NCBI GenBank assembly: GCA_036768485.1
Contig: JAVLUZ010000507.1
Location: 1,559,579 to 1,623,578, forward strand
DNA: 64,000 nucleotides
DNA from: Mermis nigrescens
Taxonomy: Eukaryota > Nematoda > Enoplea > Mermithida > Mermithidae
Direction: 5' to 3'
Position 1 is the stretch's first letter. Every line of letters begins with the position of its first letter. The translations under genes and the position numbers were made by a program. Below, piece by piece: positions 5,542 through 64,000 of the stretch. The notes beneath the pieces are model-generated. The model was not told the origin of the DNA and made no database searches. It worked only from the letters and a program-made list of their open reading frames with translations.

Positions 5542-8500
5542 CTGAAAAATCAACTTAATGCAAATATATTATTAAAGTATTTAGGATATAATATTAAATA
5601 TATCAAAAAATCTAGCGTAATAAATAAATCAATTATCAAATATGTTTAGCATGCTTCCTTCTATTCTTTTACTTTAAATGTTTAATATCACGTTTCATTT
5701 CTGTTTTCATTTTTTCGTAGCACATTGCACTGAAAACGACACGTTTTATTTATAATTTGTCAAAATATTCCAAATTATCGATTTAAAATATTATGCCTTC
5801 GTTCATTAATTCTTTTCTGAAGCAAAAGGTAATTTATAATAATTCTCTGCGTTTTTAATTTTTCTTTTGTACGTTTTTTACAATTTTTCGTTTCTCTAAA
5901 CACATGCTCTTCAAGCACTTTTGCGAAACAGTTTTGATTTTTATACGTTTTCTTTACTTATTTTGCCTCTTTCCCTTAAAAAATGCACAAGACTGGAATC
6001 AAGGCCGTATAAAAGTCGATCATTCAGTGTTTAAATCTTGAGCTTAGAGCGAAAAAGAATAAAATTTTCGCGGATCATCGAAATTTCTTTGGATTTTTCA
6101 GCAGAGGACGTCCAGACAAATAAAATTTTATTGCGCGACTGCCAGACTCTCTATTTTGTGCATGACCAAATGTCTTGCATTCGCTAAAACACAATGGAAA
6201 CCACACATGAGCGTGGGGGTCTGGGGCGGTCCACACATGGGCGTGAGGGGTGTGCATTCTCTTCAGTAGGCCAAATACCACTCCCCCAAACCAAAATACC
6301 ACCCCCTAGCATTCAATTTTTCAATTTTTTTGTTCTTTCCGCGCTTTTTTTGATGCCAATGGATAGTGCTCGATGAGAAACGTTGAAAAATTGCGTTTTT
6401 TCGCCATACCCCCATTTTTAAAACCATTCTTTTTTAGCTTTAAAAAATCTGGCACCCTCCCTTCAAAATTTTGGTGCTACCCACCTATGGAACGGTCTAA
6501 AAAGTTTAATCAGCAGATTAAAAGTTTTAATTAAACCTCGGCTTTGAATGCGTGAGGAATTTGTTAATTTAGAGTCATACATATTATCATAGGATCCTCA
6601 ATGTATTCCATGTATATTCCGCCAGTGTATAGTTCAAATTTATCAGTGACGGAAATGCCACATCTGAAATAGTCAATGATAGCAAATGGCAACAAAATGA
6701 CAAATGTTTAATCGATTGCTGTCAATCGCAACAAATGTGCAGATACCGTTGAAATCGCTTTAAAAATGGTGCGAACGTTAGAATAGCAAAGAATGAATTA
6801 ATTGAGCAGTAAGAAATTTTGGATTTTCGCCAAGTGTTCTTGTCAAAAAAACCCCGATTTTCACCTCAAACTGCCTAAAAACCCCCAACCAATGGTTGAG
6901 CATAGGAACAAAAAACCTTAATCGCTAAAAAATGCCTCCAATGGCCTCAAAAAGCCCTAAAATTGGGGACAAACACCCAACTGGGCAACCCTGCCCTCCT
7001 TGTCCTAATTTTGACCAAATATTTCACAATGCCATGCAGGCATCCTGGGGTCGATGTCGTGGGCAACTCCGGAGTAAAAAAATGGAAAAATTTCAGAGGA
7101 AAATGATGCAACATTAAGGCCAACACTATATAGAAATCAAAAAAATTCCGCAAAAGTGCTTGGAATTGATCAGAAACTGTGCATAAAAATCTCCTTCGAG
7201 ATATTTTAGCATTTTTGAGACAATTTCGATTAAAATACGCAAGCTGAACCCCCCTGCCCACCAAACAGCTAAGCTGTATATCTATGGTCCAGACCATCAA
7301 GGTTCTAGGAGTATGCATGCTTATTTGCGGCAAATCTCATTAGTTTGTGATGAGAAACCACTTCGCTGATTAATAGATTTAAAAGGAAAAATTTCGTACT
7401 ATATATTTGTACGCATACAAATATTTTTTTATGAAATAAAAAAGTGTTCACTTTTTTCATTATTTTTGAACTAACAAGAATCTTGATTAATAATCAAAAC
7501 ATTATTTTTTATCTATCAGTACTGACGTTATTGGTCCATTTTTATGCAATTCGGCCTTCATTTGATCTATTCCTTGTACTTGTCCATACTCGGAAACTTT
7601 GAAGAGCGTGTAATTCGTGACTGGAGCGCACTGTCCGAAAGTAACGCAGTTCCCGCACTTATTAAACGAGTTGCATTCTGAATGGAAAGAAACTACTCAT
7701 TATTTCCTTTATCGAACTAATTTTATGATTTGCTGCTATCCTTCATTTCACACTCAAGTTGTTCATAATAGGACACAAATTAAAATTATACTTGAATCAA
7801 AAAATATAAACTTATATCAAAATAAATCAAATTGAAATTAAGAATTACGAAAAAATTAAGTGTCCTAAAATTCAAGAAACTTCCGATATGAATCTTCCCC
7901 TCTCCTCTTTCGACTCCATCAATTTGTCTTTAAAATACATTGCATACAATTTTAAATTAAAGACCTGCACAAAGTTCGCATCCGACGAGCCTTAAAAAGT
8001 GATGTCGAATAGGAAAATTTTAACCATTTGTAGTTGATTTCGAGTAAAATTGCATGAAAGATATGAGAATTTTGCCTGTTTTTCAGCCTCCATTTCGCCA
8101 TTAGTAAGCCTTGAAAACTTTTTCCTTTCTTTTTTAAGAATATGGAAGACTAGAAGTTTATTGACTTGCTAAGAAGAGAAAGGAAACATAAAATGAGGTT
8201 AAATTAAGACTAAAAATGAATAAAATGAGAGTTTTTGCTATTTGAGATAGCAATAAACCAGAAAAAATAATTGAGGTAGTGCTGCTCTTTTTCCCAATAT
8301 ATGATACCATGACTCGACCATTTATGAGGTCTTAGTATAGGCTAGACCCCAGGAGAGCAAAAATTTTCTGAAGTAAATAAGGAAAAAAGTCATTAACGGA
8401 AAATTATAGTTGTCCTATATAGATGCTTGAAAATGACCAGAAACTACTAAAGAGACAGTTATTAGACTTTTATATGTTTATAGAACTATAGGTCCATTTT

Positions 8501-34447: not shown

Positions 34448-35622
34448 GGGCCGTATTCACAATCGAGGCTAAAGTCTATAGACCGGTCTAAATCAGGCAA
34501 CATTTAGCCTGAAAATTTAGCCTGCTATCGACTGGGCTAAATGTCATTTAGATTGAATATTTCACTCTTCTCGGCAGGTTTGACTGTACGATTATTAGTG
34601 TGAATATGGCAGCTTTTTTAAATATACATTACGAATATCGAAGAGCTTGAACGCATTTTTCGGGAAATTCGTGATCCACTTTCACTATCTGATTCCCAAT
34701 TACTCGAACATTTTCGATTTGAGGGAAGGAATTTTATACTTAACGGATTTGATCGGAGAGAACATTGAACACCCTGCAGGTCGGAGTCGTGCTATACCAC
34801 CTATTTTGCAAGTTTGCATCGCCTTGCCTTATTATTCTTGTGGAACTTTTCAAATAACAATAGGCGATACGGAGCATATCAGCCAGCCTACTGTTAGTCG
34901 AATAATTCATAAAGTTTCTAAAGCACTGGCTACACGAATCGGTCAGTTCATTAAATTCCCTTCCTTGGAGCAATTACAGCGTGTAAAGGATGAATTTTAC
35001 GAAAAAGCTGCATTTCCTGGTAAGTTGAAGTTGAACGATCTAAAAAATCGTATCCACCGCATTTCTTTCATTTTACAAAATATTTCAAAACAATTGAATG
35101 TCTCATTTGAAATCATACATGAACAGCAAGGAAATTATGGGGGTCCGGATGGGGTAAAATCATCACAAAGTACTATGGAGAATTACCGATTTTTTTGAAG
35201 GGGTCCGCCAGATTCTCACGGGTCCAGTCAGATCCCCCACGCCAATGTGTGCTTGAAATTAACATTCAAAGCTAACATTGAATAATCTCCACTTGTTCTT
35301 GTCTCTCGTTCTATTTTATCAAGAAAAGATTTAGGGGTAAAACAAATATGCATATATGAGCACAAACATGATTATAATTAGTGCCTCATCATCAGCTGAG
35401 AATCTTGTACTGAAACTCATTTTTATACGATATCGATTGCAGATTTAGACGTAGGCAACAATTAATTTTGTTTGCAGTCACAATACTTTATCTATTATGA
35501 GAAAACAACATTGCCTCCGTTGACCCTGTTATGTCATTTAGACCAGTCTATAGACCGGTCTAAAGGCGTTTAGACCGGTGTACATTTAGCCCGTTATAAA
35601 AAATGCTTTGTGAATACGGCCT
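34448..35622 (+). mobile_element. Decayed PIF/Harbinger element
   Basis: Terminal inverted repeats 'gggccgtattcacaa' and 'ttgtgaatacggcct' bound 1175 bp, with a 3-bp CTG direct repeat immediately outside each end. Subterminal 'tatagaccggtctaaa' motifs occur at both ends. Three-base target duplications suit PIF/Harbinger. Inside lies a broken transposase fragment. Confidence 0.75.
34640..35025 (+). pseudogene. HARBI1/PIF transposase N-terminal relic
   Basis: Two reading frames together give the conserved N-terminal part of Harbinger transposase. One frame (34640 to about 34720) reads LERIFREIRDPLSLSD. The other (to 35021) reads LYLTDLIGENIEHP, GRSRAIPP, SQPTVSRIIHKVSKAL, QFIKFPS and KDEFYEKAAFPG. 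The change of frame near 34720 is a one-base lesion. The coding part stops at 'gtaagt' after FPG, where some family members have an intron, and no DDE catalytic domain follows, so the copy is inactive. Confidence 0.8.
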
Positions 35623-54188: not shown

Positions 54189-55853
54189 TATTGTTACTAC
54201 GAGAGTTACACGTATAGGCGAACCTGCCTTAGCAGTTCGCGTTAGCCATCTCATAGCCAATACTAGTAGCTATCTATGATAGTGCACTGTGGGCTATGCC
54301 TTCGGTCTTCCCATTATTTCCCCAAATTTTCAATAATAAAAAACATTTAGATACTTGTCCGGTAACATAGAGTTAAGTGTGTGATAATAGTAATCGTTTC
54401 ATGCATACCGCTTGTGCAATCGAGAATATTCGATCTGAGATAAAGGCTTATCAGTATTACGTTTATTTGATCTTTATTTGTTTTACTGTAGTGGCCCTTG
54501 AGGTCAGTATACGTAACGTCGTTTTAGAGTCTGGCTTTTGGGTTTTTCGTTGGCCGGTTATTTCGACTGTATAGTCTGTACATTTTCGTTTTTCTTTGCT
54601 GTATTTTGTTGTCCGGCTATAGGCCGTGATTTCTTCGTCGAATTAAAGTTAGAGAAAACCTACCCAGTGGTTTTTGGTTATACCGAGGGTTAGGTCGGCC
54701 ACCATCCCTACGTCGAGGACGTCTTCCCATCATAGTGGACTGATAGGTAAATTTCGTATGATAGTCTATTTTATTTGGAAAGCACAATTTATTTCTCAAG
54801 CCAAAAATTGATCAAAAATATTATTTAATCTTTAGGGATGATTGATCAGCATAGAGCTCGTTGTTGTTGTTTTCATTGTTCAGCGTGCTACACAAATTAG
54901 GAACCAAAAACATTTCTGATCAGGCACTGATTGAAAATAAGTTAAATTAACAACTTGAGCTTGAGATAGGTCAACTGACCTCCGCGGCAAATTCCGAGAC
55001 TAGGTAGGTAGCCTTAGGTCTTAGGGCGTAGCTGCTGAGATCACCCGACCAGAAGCAGCCAGCAATATTAGGGCTGAGGGGATCGAAGCCGTAAGGTCTG
55101 TAAGGGTCCAAAGATCGAAAGCCATTCAGAGCCGCGCGATCGGGGCCAGCACTAAGCGTAGACTTAAGTACCTACGTACCTAGGTAAATCTCGACAGGTG
55201 AATGATAGTACGGTTCGTATCTGTGATGATTCTGTAGACCCAGATCGAACCGGCTACATTTACATTGGACGTTCCCTCCTTTAGGCTGCTAGCTACAGCC
55301 GAGCTGATCAATCATCGTAAAATTATTTTTCGATCCAAAAATTTATCATTTTGGCCATCTAAGAATGTGTAACATTTTGTTCACCTTTGTTGTTGTATCG
55401 ACCGCGATCGTGGCAGTGCGCAATTTAAGTAAGCGTCCGTGGTAAAGATTTTGTGTATCGTGGTAAAGTCATCGTTATTTTTCTATTTCCGTCGAAATTT
55501 TATCGACGAAGGCAGCTCTCACGCTCGCATTTTTCTATAAACGTCGACCCACAGGCGACGATTCATCATTTTTCTCTCTTGACGACGAAATTCCGTCATT
55601 TAGGTTTTTACCTATATACCTGTTTTTCTAACCACGTACACGTTTTTGCGCTTTAGGCTTAGTCCTACCTGTTTTCGATCATTTCACGTCAGGTATATCT
55701 TACTTCACGTAAGGAAGTACTATTTACGTGGAAAAAACCTGTTTTTTGGATCAACAAAGGCCAAATTCGAAACATTTATTTTGGGAAAAATTTCAACGTA
55801 CTGAAATTTATTTTACCCAAGGTCATATTTTTCGACATTTTTGATACCTAAAA
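54189..55853 (+). other. 5' untranslated/LTR region of the retrotransposon, limits unresolved
   Basis: No recognised coding region lies between the family D arm and the Gag ATG. A 5' LTR should be here. 'tgttac' at 54189 is a possible left LTR edge of TG type, but the right LTR edge and primer-binding site could not be fixed because the 3' LTR lies outside the window. Polyadenylation-like 'aataaa' occurs near 54336. Confidence 0.35.
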
Positions 55854-58511
55854 ATGGCAGGAAAAAAGGTTTTGCGGACACCGCCCGCTAAATTGAAAAA
55901 ACCTTCTACGCCACCTACTTCAGCTCGCCAATTACCTACCGCGCCTGTTGACTCTAATAGCGCGAGTAATTCTGCGAGTAATGACACAGTTATGAGAGAC
56001 GTAACGACTAAGGCGAATAATGATAAATTACCCGCGTCACTACATGCCGCGAGTAATACACAGTCTGAAGATGAACTATCTTTGAGTACCATGCGATCTC
56101 GCATTAATCAAACTTCGTTAACTAGATCGGACCCTAATATTGACAATTCATCAAATCATACAATGATTGATAATACGACTACCATTAACACGGCAAATAA
56201 CCCTGAAACCAGTTCGGAGCGCGAAAATCCTGATTCTGACGTAGAAAGTAATCATAGTCGCAGCATGAATGCCGACAGAGAGCGTGCTAATGCTAATGTG
56301 ACTAATGATCTTATTTTGAAAGCGCTACAAGCTATTCATTTGCAATTTTCGGACCTTTCTACGCGCGTTGATCAAGATAAAAAGGAAAATGCGGATGAAA
56401 TGCGTAAACTGCGTTTGGAGCTAAGCACTATGCTTAAACCCCAACCAGTTCTGAATCGCATAGAAAATAATGTATCTGAGCGCGTTAACCACTCAATCGA
56501 TAGCGCAAATTTTTCTGAATTTAATGCGCAAAGTGCGACTCGTGCGCAAAGTACGCATAGGGCATCTTCATTGCTGTCCACTGGCAACAGCGCATCAAAT
56601 TCACGCTCACCTTCGGAAACCGTTCCCGAAAATATTATTCAAAATCGTACGAACCGCGCGCCTGAGATTTCTAATTTGTCACAGAATCCTGTAGACACGG
56701 GTTTGCAACCAGTGCAAAACTCGGGTTTTTCGGAGAATATACCTACGATTTCGCAGCCGTCGGTATCGATTTCGCAGACGTCGCGATCTCGGCCTTCGCT
56801 GCCCTTAAATCGTAATGCGCCTTCTTTCGTACCTAATCCTTCTATTGCGAACTCGCAGCACCAATTGAATCCACCACCGCTGCAGTATTTTCCACCGCAA
56901 GGCGAAATCTTACCAAATAATTATGTACCTAATCCTATAAATGTGGAAATACCACCTAATAATCCTATTTTGCATTCTTCTAATATCGAAATGCAACCTG
57001 TTGAGATAAACTTATCTGGCATTAATAATGAATCTGCACATCTGCAAAACGAATCTGCTCCCTTATCTGAATCGTCTAGTAGGAAAAAACATGTCAAATT
57101 CTCTGACGACAGCTCATCTAGCAGCTATGATCGCCCGCGCAGTCGTCGCTCGCGTCGCAAAAGTCGATCGCGCAGACGACGTCACCGCCATAGTTCAGGT
57201 TCTTCATCTGGAAGCTCGCGTGGTGACTCGCGTCTCGCTGATTCTTTGAATCGCGGACCATTTTTACAGCAGATGCAATTTGCAATTGCAAATAAAAAAT
57301 TTTTTGATGGCGATAAATCGGATATAAAAGCATATTTTGCAGAATTTGAATCGCTTGCCAATACCTATGATATTGACAAAGCTGATCGTTTAAAATTCGC
57401 AACTGGATTTCTTGACCCTTATGTTTTGCGTTTATACCATTCGTTACCTGCTGACATACAACAATCTTATTCGAAAATGAAGCAAGCGCTAATAACCGAA
57501 TTTTGTCCGATGGACACCGGTGCGCTCTTCAATCGTTTTTTGTCACACAAACAGCAGCCTAACAAATCGGTTAAAGCTTATTATCTCTCGCTTCGCGAAG
57601 AGTTAATTAAATCGGATCCCTATCTTGAAGTTGACTCGCCTCATTTTAATAATTTAATGCGACATCAATTAAAACAAGGTTTATTACCGCACATTTCGAA
57701 AGAGGCATATCACAAAAAACCTAGAGCATCATTAGCTGAATTTTTGGACAATGCGCTTAGCGCTGAATTTGCTAATAAAGAATTTGAGGATAAAAAGGCA
57801 GTAACGCCTTACGTATCGGTAACAGCTGCTCCCGTAGGCAGCGTAGTACCTAAAGATACTCCTCGCGCATCTAACCAAAATGATTCAAATCGCTCACGTA
57901 ATAGAACGTTTCATCGCTCATCGCGTGCTGAGAAACCAGAAAATTCTTCTCGTAAATATTGTACCTTTTGCAAGCGCATAGGTCACATTTATGAGGAATG
58001 TTTCACGCGTCAAAGGCAAGAAACGTCTAATAATCCTAATTATAATAACCAAGCTGATCGCAATACCAATTCTATGGCTCGCAATCGCAGCCAATCGCGT
58101 TCTTTTCGCGACAAAATCGTTCGCCATCGCGTTCGAATTCGCAAAATAGGCAACGATCTCAATCACGATATCGTAACTCTAGTCAACATCGTTCATCTAA
58201 CTATGCGAATAATGATAATCGCTTTGAATCAAAGCAATCACGATCGAATTTTTGGCAAAATCGTAATGATTATTACCAAAATTTGCGTGCTAATTATCAA
58301 AATTCGCGTTACGATAATCGTTATAATAATCAACCGCGCCAAAATACACCTTTTGTGCAATTTCCAAATGAACAGCGTGGAACATACTATAATTCGAACT
58401 ATCGCAACGACAATAATTTTAATCGACCATATGTCACATATACGGCAGATAACCAACCCGCCACAAATGTGCCCCCACCGCAGCCAACCCTTACATCTCC
58501 TCATGATGTGA
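55854..58511 (+). CDS. gag: Retrotransposon Gag
   Basis: Structural protein of the retrotransposon particle. The ATG at 55854 opens a Ser/Asn/Thr-rich disordered N-terminus. An Arg/Ser-rich basic tract follows at about residues 423-460, and a retrotransposon-gag capsid fold at about 465-645 (QMQFAIANKKFFDGDK, FATGFLDPYVLRLYH, ALITEFCP). A CCHC zinc knuckle lies at residues 703-716 (CTFCKRIGHIYEEC, spacing C-2-C-4-H-4-C). After about 58105 the frame's composition changes abruptly to Ile-rich sequence, while the -1 frame continues the Ser/Arg/Asn-rich style into Pol. The true Gag product therefore probably ends or shifts there rather than at the nominal stop at 58511. A likely Gag-Pol fusion was broken or frameshifted. 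Confidence 0.85.
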   Translation: MAGKKVLRTPPAKLKKPSTPPTSARQLPTAPVDSNSASNSASNDTVMRDVTTKANNDKLPASLHAASNTQSEDELSLSTMRSRINQTSLTRSDPNIDNSSNHTMIDNTTTINTANNPETSSERENPDSDVESNHSRSMNADRERANANVTNDLILKALQAIHLQFSDLSTRVDQDKKENADEMRKLRLELSTMLKPQPVLNRIENNVSERVNHSIDSANFSEFNAQSATRAQSTHRASSLLSTGNSASNSRSPSETVPENIIQNRTNRAPEISNLSQNPVDTGLQPVQNSGFSENIPTISQPSVSISQTSRSRPSLPLNRNAPSFVPNPSIANSQHQLNPPPLQYFPPQGEILPNNYVPNPINVEIPPNNPILHSSNIEMQPVEINLSGINNESAHLQNESAPLSESSSRKKHVKFSDDSSSSSYDRPRSRRSRRKSRSRRRRHRHSSGSSSGSSRGDSRLADSLNRGPFLQQMQFAIANKKFFDGDKSDIKAYFAEFESLANTYDIDKADRLKFATGFLDPYVLRLYHSLPADIQQSYSKMKQALITEFCPMDTGALFNRFLSHKQQPNKSVKAYYLSLREELIKSDPYLEVDSPHFNNLMRHQLKQGLLPHISKEAYHKKPRASLAEFLDNALSAEFANKEFEDKKAVTPYVSVTAAPVGSVVPKDTPRASNQNDSNRSRNRTFHRSSRAEKPENSSRKYCTFCKRIGHIYEECFTRQRQETSNNPNYNNQADRNTNSMARNRSQSRSFRDKIVRHRVRIRKIGNDLNHDIVTLVNIVHLTMRIMIIALNQSNHDRIFGKIVMIITKICVLIIKIRVTIIVIIINRAKIHLLCNFQMNSVEHTIIRTIATTIILIDHMSHIRQITNPPQMCPHRSQPLHLLMM

Positions 58512-61201
58512 ACACGGTTACTGCGAAAGGGCCAGAATCTAGCGCGCGTCCTAATTTATTCGCGTCGCAAGAATTTCTTGAAGAGTACGAACGTCTACAA
58601 CGTCGTCTTGCAACTTACGAGAAAATCAATCTACCTCCGTCTAAGATCTTAGATTCTACTATTCCTATCGTAAGCCATGCTGGGACAAATTTACCCACCA
58701 TTCTCGTTAAAGTTCATGGCGTTGACGTACCTGCTCTCATAGATACGGGTTCACAGGTCACCATGATGACCACGTCTGCATTTTTACGTCTTGGTTTTAA
58801 TTTACCACCTAAACAGGTTTCACAAGTCGTACATGGTGTAGGCGAAATCACCGCAGTCGTTCGTTATAAAGTAAATATGACTTTAACAATTGCGGAACAA
58901 TCTATCTCTACTTCAGTAGCTATAATTGATCATTTGCCGGAAGACATGCTTTTAGGATATGATTTTTGCGAATCCGCACTCATGTGGGTTAATCCTATTG
59001 AGCGTTGTGCTTTTATAAACGGCATAAAGGTTAATTTACTTTCATCTCATGAAAAATTGCAATTTCGCGCGAAACCCAACGCAACCACCTCTGGTGTTGT
59101 GTGTGTGCATGTTTCGTTACCTGAGCCTGTTATTATACAACCTAGGCATGAATTAATTACACCTGGCTATATAAGTCACGGTTCTTGCAATTTTGACTTC
59201 GCATTATTCGAACCAAATCCCGATTTTATGGAAAAAACTTCACTTTTTGTTGCTCCGTCTATAGTCGATGCTTCACAACCTTTAATACCTGTTCGCGTTT
59301 GTAACATCTCTAAAGCGCCAATTCGCATTGACTCTGGTGAAATAATAGGTTCTTTAACCACTGATGCCGAGGTTGTGTCACACGTTTCATCTTTGGATGA
59401 TAGGACACCAGAACTTTTTGCATCAATAAATAAAGCTTTAAACGGCTCCGCCGTTAATTCTAGACAGCAGCAACAAATTCGTGAACTTTGTCTAAAATAC
59501 GACTCAATTTTTGCATTAAAAAATGAACCTCTCGGTCGTACCCCCTTGATGAAACATCATATTGACACAGGGGATAATCCACCCGTTGTTGGAAAAACTT
59601 ATCGTGTTGAGCATTCTAGAAGAGAATCTATGCAGAAAATTATAAATGAAATGCTTGCGGATAAAATTATTCGACCTACTACTAGCCCATGGGCAAGTCC
59701 ATTATTTCTCATTGGAAAAAAGGACGGTTCCCTTAGGCCAGTCGTCGATTATCGACGGTTAAATGACATCACTAAAACGCAAGTTTATCCTCTTCCGCAA
59801 TTAGATGATTATTTTGACACCTTAGGCAATGCTGCATATTTTAGCACACTTGATTTAAAATCCGGATACTGGCAAATTCCACTCGATAATAAATCTCGCG
59901 AAAAAACAGCATTTATATGTCCTGTTGGTCATTACGAATTTGAAGTTTTACCTTTTGGCTTAAAAAATGCACCCGCAGATTTTCAAAGACTAATGGAGCT
60001 TGTGCTCGCAGGTCTAAATTGGAAATCTTGTCTCGTTTACATCGATGACATAATTATTTTTTCACGTACTTTCGAAGAACATTTAAAAGATCTTGAAAAT
60101 GTCTTCATTGCTCTTAAAAAGGCAAACTTACGTGTCAAGCCTGATAAATGCCATCTTGCGCATGCAGAGGTAAAATTTCTTGGCCACAGCATAAGTGCAA
60201 TGGGCATCGCTCCTGACATGTCCAAAGTCGCGGACTTAATCTCGTTTCCCGTGCCGAAAACCGTTAAATCCTTGCAGAAATTCCTTGGCTTAGTCCAATG
60301 GTTTAAGAAATTCGTTAAGGATCTTGCTAAAATCGCTAAACCATTATTCCATCTTCTTCGTAAAGATGTCGAATTTTGCTGGAAGGCTGAACACCAAACC
60401 GCATTTGAGCTTCTGAAGAAAGCATTTACATCCCCACCTATTTTGCAATTACCAAAATTCGATGATGAGCACCAATTTATTTTAACAACTGACGCAAGTA
60501 ACTATGCGTTAGGTGCTATTTTGACGCAAAAACATTTACCATCCAAAAATCGTTTTATTCTTAGCTACGCTAGTCGCGTGCTAAATTCTGCTGAATGTAA
60601 TTATGCTACTTCAGAAAAAGAAGCGTTAGCGGTAGTGTGGGCCATCAAGCATTATCGACATTATCTTTACGGTAAAAAATTCATTGTCGAAACTGATCAT
60701 CAAGCGTTAACCTGGTTAGTAAATGTTAAAGACCCATCGAGTCGATTACGCCGTTGGGGTCTCAAATTACAGGAATACGAATATGATATCGTTTACGTTC
60801 CTGGTGCATATAACTGCGCAGCTGATCTTCTTTCACGTCACCCTAAATATGATCATGCAGAACGCAAATATAAAGTAGAGCGCAAAAATATCGTTAACAT
60901 CGCAAATTTAGAATCCGAAGATTCTGAGTCAGATGATGAATTGGTTCCACCTGACCGATCGTGCGATAATGCGCCTACTGCACCAATTAATCATCCAAAT
61001 GCGCAAAATAATAATTCTACTGCGCAAACCGATCCTACCAATTCTAAACCACCTACATTTCGCGAACGCTTATTACTTACCGATGCCGAAAAAGCTGAAA
61101 TGCTAACACCTGCGCGTTTACTCGCTGAGCAACGTGCAGATGATGAATTGCATAAAATTCGCATCGCATTGAATGACTTAACAACGAAAAAAATATCGTG
61201 A
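58283..61201 (+). CDS. pol: Retrotransposon Pol: protease, reverse transcriptase, RNase H
   Basis: The frame is open upstream to about 58105, with no ATG at its head, so it is expressed by fusion or frameshift from Gag. Counting from 58283, an aspartic protease motif DTGS starts at residue 154. Reverse transcriptase blocks include WASPLFLIGKKDGSLRPVVD, STLDLKSGYWQIPL and the catalytic YIDD at residues 586-589. RNase H begins near residue 730, with TDAS (Asp 737) and TDHQALTW. The order PR-RT-RH fits Ty3/gypsy. The frame ends at a TGA right after a seven-A run, and the integrase continues in the +1 frame. Confidence 0.92.
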   Translation: MRANYQNSRYDNRYNNQPRQNTPFVQFPNEQRGTYYNSNYRNDNNFNRPYVTYTADNQPATNVPPPQPTLTSPHDVNTVTAKGPESSARPNLFASQEFLEEYERLQRRLATYEKINLPPSKILDSTIPIVSHAGTNLPTILVKVHGVDVPALIDTGSQVTMMTTSAFLRLGFNLPPKQVSQVVHGVGEITAVVRYKVNMTLTIAEQSISTSVAIIDHLPEDMLLGYDFCESALMWVNPIERCAFINGIKVNLLSSHEKLQFRAKPNATTSGVVCVHVSLPEPVIIQPRHELITPGYISHGSCNFDFALFEPNPDFMEKTSLFVAPSIVDASQPLIPVRVCNISKAPIRIDSGEIIGSLTTDAEVVSHVSSLDDRTPELFASINKALNGSAVNSRQQQQIRELCLKYDSIFALKNEPLGRTPLMKHHIDTGDNPPVVGKTYRVEHSRRESMQKIINEMLADKIIRPTTSPWASPLFLIGKKDGSLRPVVDYRRLNDITKTQVYPLPQLDDYFDTLGNAAYFSTLDLKSGYWQIPLDNKSREKTAFICPVGHYEFEVLPFGLKNAPADFQRLMELVLAGLNWKSCLVYIDDIIIFSRTFEEHLKDLENVFIALKKANLRVKPDKCHLAHAEVKFLGHSISAMGIAPDMSKVADLISFPVPKTVKSLQKFLGLVQWFKKFVKDLAKIAKPLFHLLRKDVEFCWKAEHQTAFELLKKAFTSPPILQLPKFDDEHQFILTTDASNYALGAILTQKHLPSKNRFILSYASRVLNSAECNYATSEKEALAVVWAIKHYRHYLYGKKFIVETDHQALTWLVNVKDPSSRLRRWGLKLQEYEYDIVYVPGAYNCAADLLSRHPKYDHAERKYKVERKNIVNIANLESEDSESDDELVPPDRSCDNAPTAPINHPNAQNNNSTAQTDPTNSKPPTFRERLLLTDAEKAEMLTPARLLAEQRADDELHKIRIALNDLTTKKIS

Positions 61202-62672
61202 CGAATTTTTTCTCGTAAACGATGTACTTTTTCGTCGTTTTCAACCTAAGCGTTCACCAACTGTCGTTCATCAAATAGTCATACCCAAATCTTTGCGTCG
61301 TTTCATATTAACGGAATTTCATGACTCTATTTTTGGAGCTCATTTTTCATCGCGCAAAATTTTGCCCGCCATACAAATGCGTTATTGGTGGCCGCGCATG
61401 GAAAATGATGTGATCGCGTGGTGTCGGAATTGTGATGTGTGCTTACAACGTAAGGTCGCATTAAATTCCACATCCGTTCCGTTGCAACCAATCGAAGTAT
61501 CCGCGCCTTTTGAACTCATTGCGTGCGATTGTTTGCATATGCCGCGATCCCCCTCCGGAAATGACCAAATAGTAGTTTTTATGGATTATTTTACAAAATA
61601 TGTGGAAGCTTTTGCTGTTTCTGACATAAAAGCAACAACAATTGCAAATTTATTGCTAAGAGAAATTATACCACGTTATGGAGTTCCCAAAAAATTTTTG
61701 ACAGATCAGGGATCAAATTTTACATCTACCCTTATTTTGGAAGTTTGCAAATTATTAAACGTTCAAAAAATATTTACAACCCCATATCACCCCCAGTGTG
61801 ATGGGTTGGTGGAACGTTATAATCGTACATTGATTGATGGTTTGTCTAAGCTGAGTGCGCGATCACAGTATGATTGGGAACAATTTTTACCCTTCGCATT
61901 ATTTGCATACCGCGCGACTCCTCAATCATCGACTAATATATCTCCTTTTGAAATGCTTTATGGTCGCGAACCAGCATTTCCTCTTGACACTTTACTTATA
62001 AATGACTTCGTAATAAATCCGAACTTACCATCTGTCGCAGAAAAATATGTCATTGATTTAAAGTTGACTTTACAAGATCTGCATGAAATCGCGTCTCAAA
62101 ATTTAACTCAAGCGCGTAAGCAGCAAAAATCGCAATATGACAAATCCGTAACGCACACAAATTTTAATCTCTCGGATATAGTCTATCTTAATAATACCTC
62201 AGTCATTCAACCTGAAATCGGTAAACTATCACCCAAGCGTGTTGGGCCATACCGAATTATTGACTTACCTACGCCTGAAACTGCGAAAATCGCATATGTC
62301 TATAACCCTCTCATCATTCATCACGTTCACAGGAATAGACTTTTACCTGAACCTAAACTACCTTACTCTGACTTAATTGTGGAAAAACACGCGTACGTCC
62401 CTGGCGATTTTGTGTTGGTAAAGTTACCACATCGCCCTCTTGCCCCGGCAGTTGTCATAAGTTTTGAGGATTTACCGGGCAGGGAACAGAAAGCTAAGGA
62501 CTGCGCGCCTGTACGTTTATTAAATGGTTCTAAAACAGCACATGCCGTACCATTATCTAATGTTTTTCCTTTTGCAGACCCATGGCTGCACAAGGTACCC
62601 CCAGCAAGGAGGCATTGTTGGAAGCAGCTGGTCGCCGATGCAAATTCGAGGGGCGTGATCCCGCGTCCCTAG
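61202..62672 (+). CDS. pol: Retrotransposon integrase, separate frame
   Basis: The integrase frame is open from the A run; the first ATG is at 61293. Counting from that ATG, the HHCC zinc-binding region shows FHDSIFGAH and CRNCDVC (44-50). The catalytic core shows Asp 79 (ACDCLHM), Asp 138 (LTDQGSNF) and Glu 174 (GLVERYNRTL), a D,D35E spacing. After the usual GPYRII...HHVHRNRLLP segment, a tail of about 100 residues contains GDFVLVKLPHRPLAPAVVIS and VPLSNVFPF. This resembles a PWWP/Tudor-type chromatin-binding fold rather than a chromodomain, and that reading is inference. The last 91 bp overlap the next ORF. Confidence 0.9.
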
Positions 62673-64000
62673 ATGAGTTTCGTTCGGCATTGACCAGTAT
62701 GGCTTTAGAGCGGGGCTTGGTCGTACCAGACCCGTTGCCGCAAAACGATAATAGTCGTGTTGGCGGTCTAGAATCATTTACCGCAAAATGGATAAAGCAT
62801 AAAGCATCACATAAAATCGTAAATCATAAAAAGCGTATTAACGACCAGCAACTCTGGTGGGCGAATCGGTTTGGTAGATTTCCTTTGGTAACCCCTCGCG
62901 TACCAAAGAACAGACTTCTACCCACCGTATTAATCTCCGATGACCAGAAGTCGTTTGCCGCCATTTTGGCGTTAATTCAACCATCGAATATGACGAATGG
63001 CACTTTATTCTTAGGCTATGATTCCGAATTTGTGAATGACAGAAAAGGCAGGCATTATAAGACCTGGGACTTGCGTTATCAGCAACTATGTCCCACTTAC
63101 CAGGACCTCCATGGCCCATTCGTACGCTACGTCCAAGTTGCGAGCGCGAACGGCCATGTGTTCTGTTGGGATCTAGCAAAGTTCCCGCAACCTCCGTTCG
63201 GGCTTCACCAGTTGCTTGAAACGCGTTTACCTAACGTATATATGGTTTGTTACGATCCAACGCAAGATCGACTTGCGTATTTCCATGTCTATGGGCCAAC
63301 TTTCGAGGAAATTGTGGCAATTCCGGATGCAGAAATTTGCAGTAAACTGCACTGGAAAGATCCATTTATTGCGAATTTCATTGATATTCAGCCATTGGCA
63401 AGAACTTTTACGCGTAGCTTACGCATTAAAGCGCAGTCACACTCGTTAAAGCGCTTAGCCGAATTCTTTTTTGACATGTATATTGATCCGAACGCGCCTG
63501 ATAACTTCGGACAGGCGTGGAGCTTACCCTTAACTCGGGACATGCAGCATTATCTAGCGATGGACGCCCTCATAACTATCGATGTGTTTATATTGATAGA
63601 AGGGTGCACGCAAGATAATCGCATTACTGACGATCGAAAACCCATGTCGGTTTCGTTTACAGGCGATGAACTGTATATTAAGGCTGGCGGCCCTAAAGCT
63701 AGAGTGCGCATACCCTTGTCGACTAGTAAGCCACCACAGGGACAGTCGACCAGTTCAGCGGCTGACGCTGAAGTTGATTCGAATGGCGAAGAGCTAATCT
63801 TAGCTGAGGACTTTTATTGCCCAGCTCCGCAACCGCCAGTGGCCATAGCTGCGGCCACTACCATCGCTTCTGTAACGGATGCGATGGCTCACGTTAATGT
63901 CTTCGAGAATCCAATGTTCTATACTCAGGAATCGCAGACCGTTGCCGACCCAGTTTTGGGCCCGGTCAGTGCGCCTGACACAGAACCTAAGTCAAAACCA
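62582..64000 (+). CDS. DEDDy 3'-5' exonuclease-domain ORF, continues past window
   Basis: The ATG at 62582 opens 473 codons without a stop to the window edge, in the -1 frame relative to integrase and overlapping it by 91 bp. Residues 1-140 are unrecognised. Residues about 143-335 match the RNase D/WRN-type exonuclease fold. Exo I is GYDSEF (Asp 147, Glu 149). Exo II is YDPTQDRLAYF (Asp 229). FIDIQPLA follows. Exo III is WSLPLTRDMQHYLAMDAL (Tyr 324, Asp 328), preceded by SLKRLAEFFFDMYID. All four metal-binding acids and the Tyr of the DEDDy subclass are present, so an active nuclease is plausible. The rest (about 370-473) is low-complexity Ser/Ala/Glu/Pro-rich. It occupies the env position of the retrotransposon. 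It could instead be a host gene captured by, or lying next to, the element. The domain call is fairly sure, the role unknown. Confidence 0.8.
   Translation, partial: MAAQGTPSKEALLEAAGRRCKFEGRDPASLDEFRSALTSMALERGLVVPDPLPQNDNSRVGGLESFTAKWIKHKASHKIVNHKKRINDQQLWWANRFGRFPLVTPRVPKNRLLPTVLISDDQKSFAAILALIQPSNMTNGTLFLGYDSEFVNDRKGRHYKTWDLRYQQLCPTYQDLHGPFVRYVQVASANGHVFCWDLAKFPQPPFGLHQLLETRLPNVYMVCYDPTQDRLAYFHVYGPTFEEIVAIPDAEICSKLHWKDPFIANFIDIQPLARTFTRSLRIKAQSHSLKRLAEFFFDMYIDPNAPDNFGQAWSLPLTRDMQHYLAMDALITIDVFILIEGCTQDNRITDDRKPMSVSFTGDELYIKAGGPKARVRIPLSTSKPPQGQSTSSAADAEVDSNGEELILAEDFYCPAPQPPVAIAAATTIASVTDAMAHVNVFENPMFYTQESQTVADPVLGPVSAPDTEPKSKP

Follow-up and report, generated by a model that had tools for sequence, protein, structure and literature searches.

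Why would a long terminal repeat (LTR) retrotransposon keep a gene for a 3'-5' exonuclease? The question is raised by a 64,000-nucleotide stretch of the Mermis nigrescens genome (the window; G000:C452:1559579-1623578, in an assembly of 524 Mb and 860 contigs), which we analyzed together with adjoining sequence of the same contig (L103). At the downstream end of the window lies an open reading frame (ORF), here called ORF3, that a sequence-only reading had taken for a DEDDy exonuclease gene carried by a Ty3/gypsy element. We find that ORF3 is a real gene belonging to a multi-copy Ty3/gypsy family and that within this family it is under purifying selection. Our best explanation, to which we assign a probability of roughly 0.6 on the sequence evidence, is that ORF3 is a gypsy gene in the position of env, that it is translated from a spliced mRNA, and, much less securely, that its product trims RNA 3' ends and so counters silencing. 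The locus makes the question testable and links it with proofreading of the ExoN type as well as with counter-defence against small RNAs.

ORF3 Lies within a Large Ty3/gypsy Element

The features on which the argument rests are as follows.

62582..64000, continuing to 65734 outside the window, + strand: ORF3, predicted DEDDy 3'-5' exonuclease gene, 1050 amino acids (aa)
62897..63616 (about aa 106-345), + strand: predicted DEDDy exonuclease domain of ORF3, with ExoI D147/E149, ExoII D229 and ExoIII Y324/D328
54192..55264, + strand: 5' LTR, 1073 bp, TG...CA, 98.6% identical over 1073 bp to the downstream contig by blastn
67534-68605 (window-equivalent, outside the window): 3' LTR, partner of the 5' LTR

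As described in the sequence-only reading, the frame is open for at least 473 codons up to the window edge and shares 91 bp with the integrase ORF, whose stop ends at 62672. Its ATG, at 62582, is in the -1 frame relative to integrase. At the local frequency of stop triplets the chance of 442 open codons is about 1.3e-9, which rules out a chance open frame. That reading had proposed looking beyond 64000 for the stop and the 3' LTR, and both were found there, the stop at 65734 and the LTR beyond the ORF. The element is 14,414 bp long, reaches past the window edge, and is large and multi-copy. Its two LTRs have TG/CA ends and are set apart by 14 substitutions over 1072 sites and a single gap (Kimura two-parameter distance 0.0132); ATAT flanks the element on both sides as a target-site duplication, and a polypurine tract, GGGGGAG, stands just upstream of the 3' LTR. 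The 5' LTR is followed by TTGGACGTTCCC, by its position a candidate tRNA primer binding site. After the gag ORF, Pfam families follow in the order protease, reverse transcriptase, RNase H and integrase, the arrangement of Ty3/gypsy elements (Metaviridae).

The frame is longer in some other copies. Among the best 90 of 2,666 candidates in a genome search with ORF3, 17 have a stop-to-stop frame of exactly 1390 aa, and one of these reads as a 1383-aa protein from its ATG. After the DEDDy domain the protein has a lengthy linker rich in Ser, Thr and Pro, then a region of unknown type, and at the end a basic tail rich in Q and R; the net charge of aa 1011-1383 is +24, which suggests that the tail binds nucleic acid. 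For aa 474-1383 as a whole, neither Pfam nor PDB gave a match at E<=1, and a single slice of it hit Pfam at chance level (E 0.22). The window copy loses the reading frame beyond aa 1050, where the end of the gene would lie (window-equivalent 65735-67533).

ORF3 Is Conserved among Copies

We scored the best 90 of the 2,666 first-look candidates, the window included, a sample that favours intact copies. All 90 span 469-473 of the 473 aa at 90-100% identity, and 88 are stop-free. The junction between integrase and ORF3 is also kept, 40 of 40 sequences (the best 40 of 838 candidates, window included) covering 599-600 of its 600 bases. The LTR pair encloses an ORF that travels with its integrase, in keeping with the earlier claim that it belongs to the element and is no chance neighbour.

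Selection was measured by the method of Nei and Gojobori (NG86) on the window and on 14 of the 90 rows that we selected to be widely spread, of which 13 have frames of at least 1371 aa; the pairs are non-independent. The median ratio of nonsynonymous to synonymous substitution rates (dN/dS) was 0.122 over the 473 codons (104 of 105 pairs, 15 copies), below 1, the sign of purifying selection for which the sequence-only reading had proposed to test. It was lowest in the exonuclease domain, aa 106-345, at 0.065 (105/105 pairs), and stood at 0.147 for aa 1-105 (104 pairs) and 0.185 for aa 346-473 (103 pairs). ORF3 is nonetheless less constrained than integrase, whose C-terminus gave a median of 0.031 (13 of 15 copies, two frame-broken copies having been dropped; 77 of 78 pairs). 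Synonymous divergence in the two genes is correlated (r=0.81 across 78 pairs); it is higher in ORF3 in 71 of the 78.

ORF3 Resembles WRN/EXD2-Type Exonucleases

The residues D147, E149, D229, Y324 and D328 are where the sequence-only reading had placed them. Its proposed check against the Pfam family DNA_pol_A_exo1 (PF01612) came out in two parts. The window sequence by itself remained below the 23.6-bit cut-off (the ORF alone, E=0.019 and 15.2 bits; a slice of it, E=0.0054 and 17 bits; the 1050-aa form, E=0.063 and 13.5 bits), whereas the family was recognized in the relatives of ORF3 described below. In PDB the window ORF by itself found nothing, and the slice hit a single entry, a designed repeat protein, at the chance-level E of 0.055.

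Models built from relatives were more sensitive. A model of eight sister ORF3s of the same genome, with the window left out, gave the window 63.7 bits, against at most 11.0 bits for 5,000 shuffles; models of only one or the other of the two lineages of sisters scored it at 41.3 bits (lineage B; shuffles 6.8) and 34.3 bits (lineage A; 6.8). When the window ORF3 and the eight sister families were aligned (alignment A1) and the profile was compared with PDB, it matched the WRN exonuclease at E=2.5e-12 and also NrnC, EXD2, Egalitarian (E=7.2e-5) and Mut-7. Identification as a DEDDy exonuclease gene is thus upheld. D147, D229, Y324 and D328 are invariant in all nine aligned families and E149 in eight (K in L109), so that 8/9 families keep all five catalytic residues, as do 15/15 copies of the window family; the first Asp is lost in copies L108 and L113. 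An ORF3 model also matched 7 of 14 loci of RNase D/Pol I exonuclease type, a set that includes E. coli RNase D and from which 80 enterobacterial loci were left out.

We read the ORF3 domain as a DEDDy 3'-5' exonuclease of WRN/EXD2 type, probably active as an enzyme; the intact active site together with the low dN/dS argues for catalysis. The three outcomes that the sequence-only reading had named as telling against it, an LTR between integrase and the ORF body, absence of the ORF from other copies and lack of recognition as an exonuclease, were none of them found. Searches of PHROGs and NCBIfam gave nothing useful; phages yielded no ORF3 relative at E<=1 and plasmids two weak pieces only (E 0.05 and 0.8), and viral and other-genome contigs yielded no confirmed relative by patterns that reach close relatives only.

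A Candidate Spliced mRNA

ORF3 is preceded by sequence that resembles a splice acceptor, and the leader holds donor-like sites.

62563..62577, + strand: splice-acceptor-like site TTTTTCCTTTTGCAG, ending 4 bases upstream of the ORF3 ATG
55429..55434, + strand: candidate splice donor TAA/GTAAGC (cut after TAA), in the leader
55693 and 55709, + strand: candidate splice donors CAG/GTATAT and CAC/GTAAGG, in the leader

By our own simple pyrimidine score, TTTTTCCTTTTGCAG ranks second among the 225 YAG sites between 54001 and the window end. The 45 bases preceding the ATG are identical in 15/15 copies, and divergence reaches its minimum, 0.009, over the final 100 bases upstream of it, compared with 0.032-0.129 within ORF3. 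All three donor-like sites are conserved in 8/8 alignable leaders (10 were fetched). Translation of ORF3 from an env-like spliced subgenomic mRNA is therefore the most likely mode of expression to judge from these sites. ORF3 does belong to the element, as the sequence-only reading had argued from the overlap with integrase. That overlap does not have to imply coupled translation, given the invariant acceptor-like site just before the ATG.

A related pattern was seen over 62382-62581, where variation among 13 copies is 0.009-0.016, against 0.026-0.059 in the preceding stretch of integrase. A further cis signal may overlap this interval.

A Probable Old Association with Several gypsy Families

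A search of the same genome with PF01612 gave at least 22 rows, all above the cut-off, and 21 of these 22 fall within the twenty regions of 10 kb that we examined. A gypsy integrase lies upstream of the exonuclease in 18 of the 20, the exceptions being L122 and L123, which may be host genes. The 18 include near-identical copies; by our own grouping they comprise eight families with ORF3 soon after integrase, and L117, in which 4.3 kb containing a tandem repeat separates the two. At least eight further gypsy families (L104-L121), in two lineages, thus have a separate DEDDy ORF3 after integrase, with frames of 285-547 aa and a gap of about 105-860 nt between the integrase ORF and the ORF3 frame. 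Lineage A consists of L104, L106, L110, L114 and L119 (and L117 by its integrase) and lineage B of L108/L112, L109 and L115; the window element stands apart from both in the integrase and reverse transcriptase trees. The exonuclease tree recovers the same groups as those two trees, the A/B split having 99-100 support in all three unrooted trees; within lineage A its support is low (29-86) and its branching departs from that of the pol trees. The simplest reading of the trees is a single old association of ORF3 with gypsy pol, although ORF3 may have passed between families early on. Given these families and the groups shared by pol and ORF3 trees, ORF3 is not one recent capture by one element.

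In L115 and L116 the flanking direct repeats are only about 7.2 kb apart, and ORF3 is present. The idea that the exonuclease permits a giant element was weakened by its presence in shorter ones.

Acceptor-like sites recur in lineage A, where the best site near the gap between integrase and ORF3 ranks 1-3 in six of seven loci (L120, rank 14), several of these sites lying 200-400 bases upstream of the ATG. Pairs from the other families are mostly saturated at synonymous sites; L112 against L115/L116 gave dN/dS of 0.13-0.14 at near-saturated dS.

L123 deserves separate mention. Of 16 loci compared with an ORF3 model, its PF01612 interval 5777-6259 (G000:C147:10885-11184) matched best (E=1.6e-11), and L123 is possibly a host relative of the source of ORF3.

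What the Exonuclease Might Do

The stop-free copies, the domain dN/dS of 0.065, the invariant acceptor-like site and the matching tree groups indicate a gene kept as useful to the element. We propose that ORF3, in env position, would be translated from a spliced subgenomic mRNA and that, as a separate and probably spliced ORF, it would yield an exonuclease made apart from Gag-Pol. The enzyme would then trim RNA 3' ends outside the particle, the weakest of the inferred steps, and its main benefit would be to blunt small-RNA silencing of the element. We hold this last part tentatively, counter-silencing through RNA trimming outside the particle being, as the main benefit, somewhat short of even odds on sequence grounds. 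As substrates, small RNAs and the element's own RNA or cDNA ends are about equally likely, with a slight preference for small RNAs. We lean toward counter-silencing because ORF3 is not tied to element length and is seemingly supplied in trans. The fullest version, that an old, diverse and non-bdelloid-like set of gypsy elements keeps, under purifying selection, a 3'-5' exonuclease made from a spliced message and directed at degrading or trimming the small RNAs with which the host silences them, seems to us unlikely, if far from negligible; if true, ORF3 would be a retrotransposon-encoded counter-silencing nuclease.

Several observations weigh against the explanation as a whole. The low dN/dS fits a role in replication equally well, and the copies that yielded it were hand-picked (14 of 90 rows). 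Close pairs in other families gave dN/dS of 0.28-1.18 on 2 to 81 changes, so between recent copies there constraint appears weak or absent. All eight sister ORF3s pass the PF01612 cut-off, but they were located with PF01612, so that passing it is no independent test. A single-sequence AlphaFold2 model of ORF3 was unusable (mean predicted local distance difference test score, pLDDT, 34.7). The splice donor is ambiguous, there being three candidates of which none is the top-scoring GT, and the acceptor-like sites of lineage B are weaker (best ranks 4, 6, 23, 31 and 33 in five loci), so that splicing is not well supported in that lineage.

The chief competitor would give the enzyme a replicative role on the element's own nucleic acids, in which it trimmed the 3' ends of cDNA or RNA or proofread the reverse transcripts made from the 14-kb genome. 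WRN, to which the A1 profile is nearest, is a DNA exonuclease; the exonuclease domain is strongly constrained, the element is long, and the bdelloid rotifer study considered below proposes, in the sections drawn on here, 3'-end processing of element RNA (PMC5408684). Yet ORF3 is separate from Pol in the window and in other families, so packaging is not built in, and its presence in L115 and L116 shows that it does not track element length. We regard a replicative role as a serious possibility, although one we would not bet on. Rather less probable is that the DEDDy fold acts without catalysis as an adaptor that binds or moves element RNA, like Egalitarian or inactive proteins of EXD1/Maelstrom type. 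Egalitarian is indeed among the PDB matches, and the long linker and basic tail would suit such a protein, but if the protein only bound RNA, some of the catalytic residues that are so widely kept should have been lost, and we consider the adaptor unlikely.

The remaining alternatives concern how ORF3 is joined to its neighbours. A Gag-Pol-Exo fusion made by -1 frameshifting, or a fusion broken in the window copy, could replace the spliced mRNA, given the -1 frame of ORF3 relative to integrase across the overlap and the other frame breaks that gag-pol shows in this copy. The overlap holds no X-XXY-YYZ heptamer, however; the integrase stop, 88 bases past the ATG start, is kept in 13/15 copies, the remaining two being out of frame further upstream; and in other families the intervening gap separates the two frames. 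A fusion of either kind therefore strikes us as improbable. As for a host exonuclease gene that adjoins the window copy or was captured once by it, the composition of ORF3 might raise the suspicion, since its GC content at third codon positions is 0.47, against 0.30-0.34 in gag, pol and integrase. A chance neighbour, like an intervening 3' LTR, is refuted by the position of the 3' LTR beyond ORF3, by the 89 further scored genome matches and by the conserved junction, and we give it almost no weight.

Relation to Known Systems

An exonuclease in a gypsy element, to the sequence-only reading not a standard component, is not without precedent, DEDDy ORF3s having been described in the LTR elements Juno and Vesta of bdelloid rotifers (Rodriguez, Kenefick, and Arkhipova 2017; PMC5408684). 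Our comparison rests on published descriptions. As described in that paper, these are, like ours, gypsy-type LTR elements with an RNase D-like DEDDy ORF located after pol, with several families per genome and with TG..CA LTRs; ORF3s of LTR elements are reported there from spliced messages, whereas splicing is only predicted here. They differ in that Juno, Vesta and TelKA have a dUTPase between protease and reverse transcriptase, for which the window pol has no match; in their shorter LTRs (159-551 bp, against 1073 in the window element); in the change of DEDD to DEED, DEDD being kept in the window element; and in the at least two independent acquisitions inferred for bdelloids, against the agreeing tree groups in the present genome (PMC5408684). 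The window element is further set apart by its long basic tail and PWWP-like integrase C-terminus. In section 3.6 of the bdelloid paper the role of the DEDDy ORF3 is left open, and the selection test described there covered other ORF3 types (PMC5408684). A 2019 paper, in the part drawn on here, counts a DnaQ-like exonuclease among the well-known accessory domains of LTR elements (PMC6338049). Titles and abstract openings in the literature searched, whose scope excluded subscription journals and preprints, mentioned no DEDDy ORF3 in LTR elements of other animal groups. The kind of element is thus already known, and what we add is the lineage, the size, the selection evidence and the PWWP integrase.

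Other mobile elements offer looser parallels, so far as the cited passages describe them. Penelope-like elements of the Athena/Terminon type are likewise retroelements with a DEDDy gene of unknown function, but belong to another, telomeric class without LTRs or integrase (PMC6431247, PMC5408684); in Dada, a DNA transposon, the DEDDy exonuclease domain sits inside the transposase (PMC3706591). WRN, EXD2, Mut-7, Egalitarian and bacterial NrnC share the DEDDy motifs and are matched by the ORF3 family profile, but are host genes; the long linker and basic tail also set the ORF3 of the window family apart. The ExoN of nidoviruses and arenaviruses also gives an RNA-replicating element its own 3'-5' exonuclease, with proofreading or immune suppression as models; these are unrelated replicons, likened by description and not by sequence (PMC7968707).

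Integrase C-Terminus and Other Features

The rest of the coding region, and one further module, are as follows.

55854..58511, + strand: gag ORF (Retrotrans_gag at 23 bits, just under the 24.1 cut-off; CX2CX4HX4C zinc knuckle by eye)
58058..61201, + strand: first part of pol, with aspartic protease, reverse transcriptase and RNase H (Pfam)
61182..62672, + strand: second part of pol, integrase, with H2C2 zinc finger, rve core and weak SH3_Tf2-1 (Pfam)
62403..62576, + strand: PWWP-like module at the integrase C-terminus (PF00855, E=0.00097 and 20 bits, below the 25.6-bit cut-off)

PF00855 is clearer in integrase C-termini of lineage B (L109, 5145-5507, E=2.2e-13; L115, 5241-5603, E=4.7e-11); among the three relatives tested it was not found in L104 of lineage A. 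LEDGF, which bears a PWWP domain, tethers HIV integrase. By analogy, a gypsy integrase with its own chromatin reader would resemble the PWWP of LEDGF. The titles and abstract openings listed in the literature searched showed no PWWP in a gypsy integrase, and passages of PMC11244446 had no bearing on it; the word PWWP is absent from the main text of PMC5408684.

In the window copy the final part of gag is apparently out of frame, and integrase is in a different frame from RNase H. No in-phase slippery heptamer is present at the gag/pol, pol/integrase or integrase/ORF3 boundaries, and translational slippage at these three was accordingly set aside; our guess is that the frame changes inside gag-pol reflect decay or assembly error. 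No dUTPase family was matched in the pol ORF (Pfam, E up to 1), and tRNA and Rfam scans of the window found nothing. Elsewhere in the window, a short ORF at 34599-35198 has a weak, sub-cut-off match to HTH_Tnp_4 (PF13613, E=0.0005, 20 bits) and is perhaps a transposase remnant.

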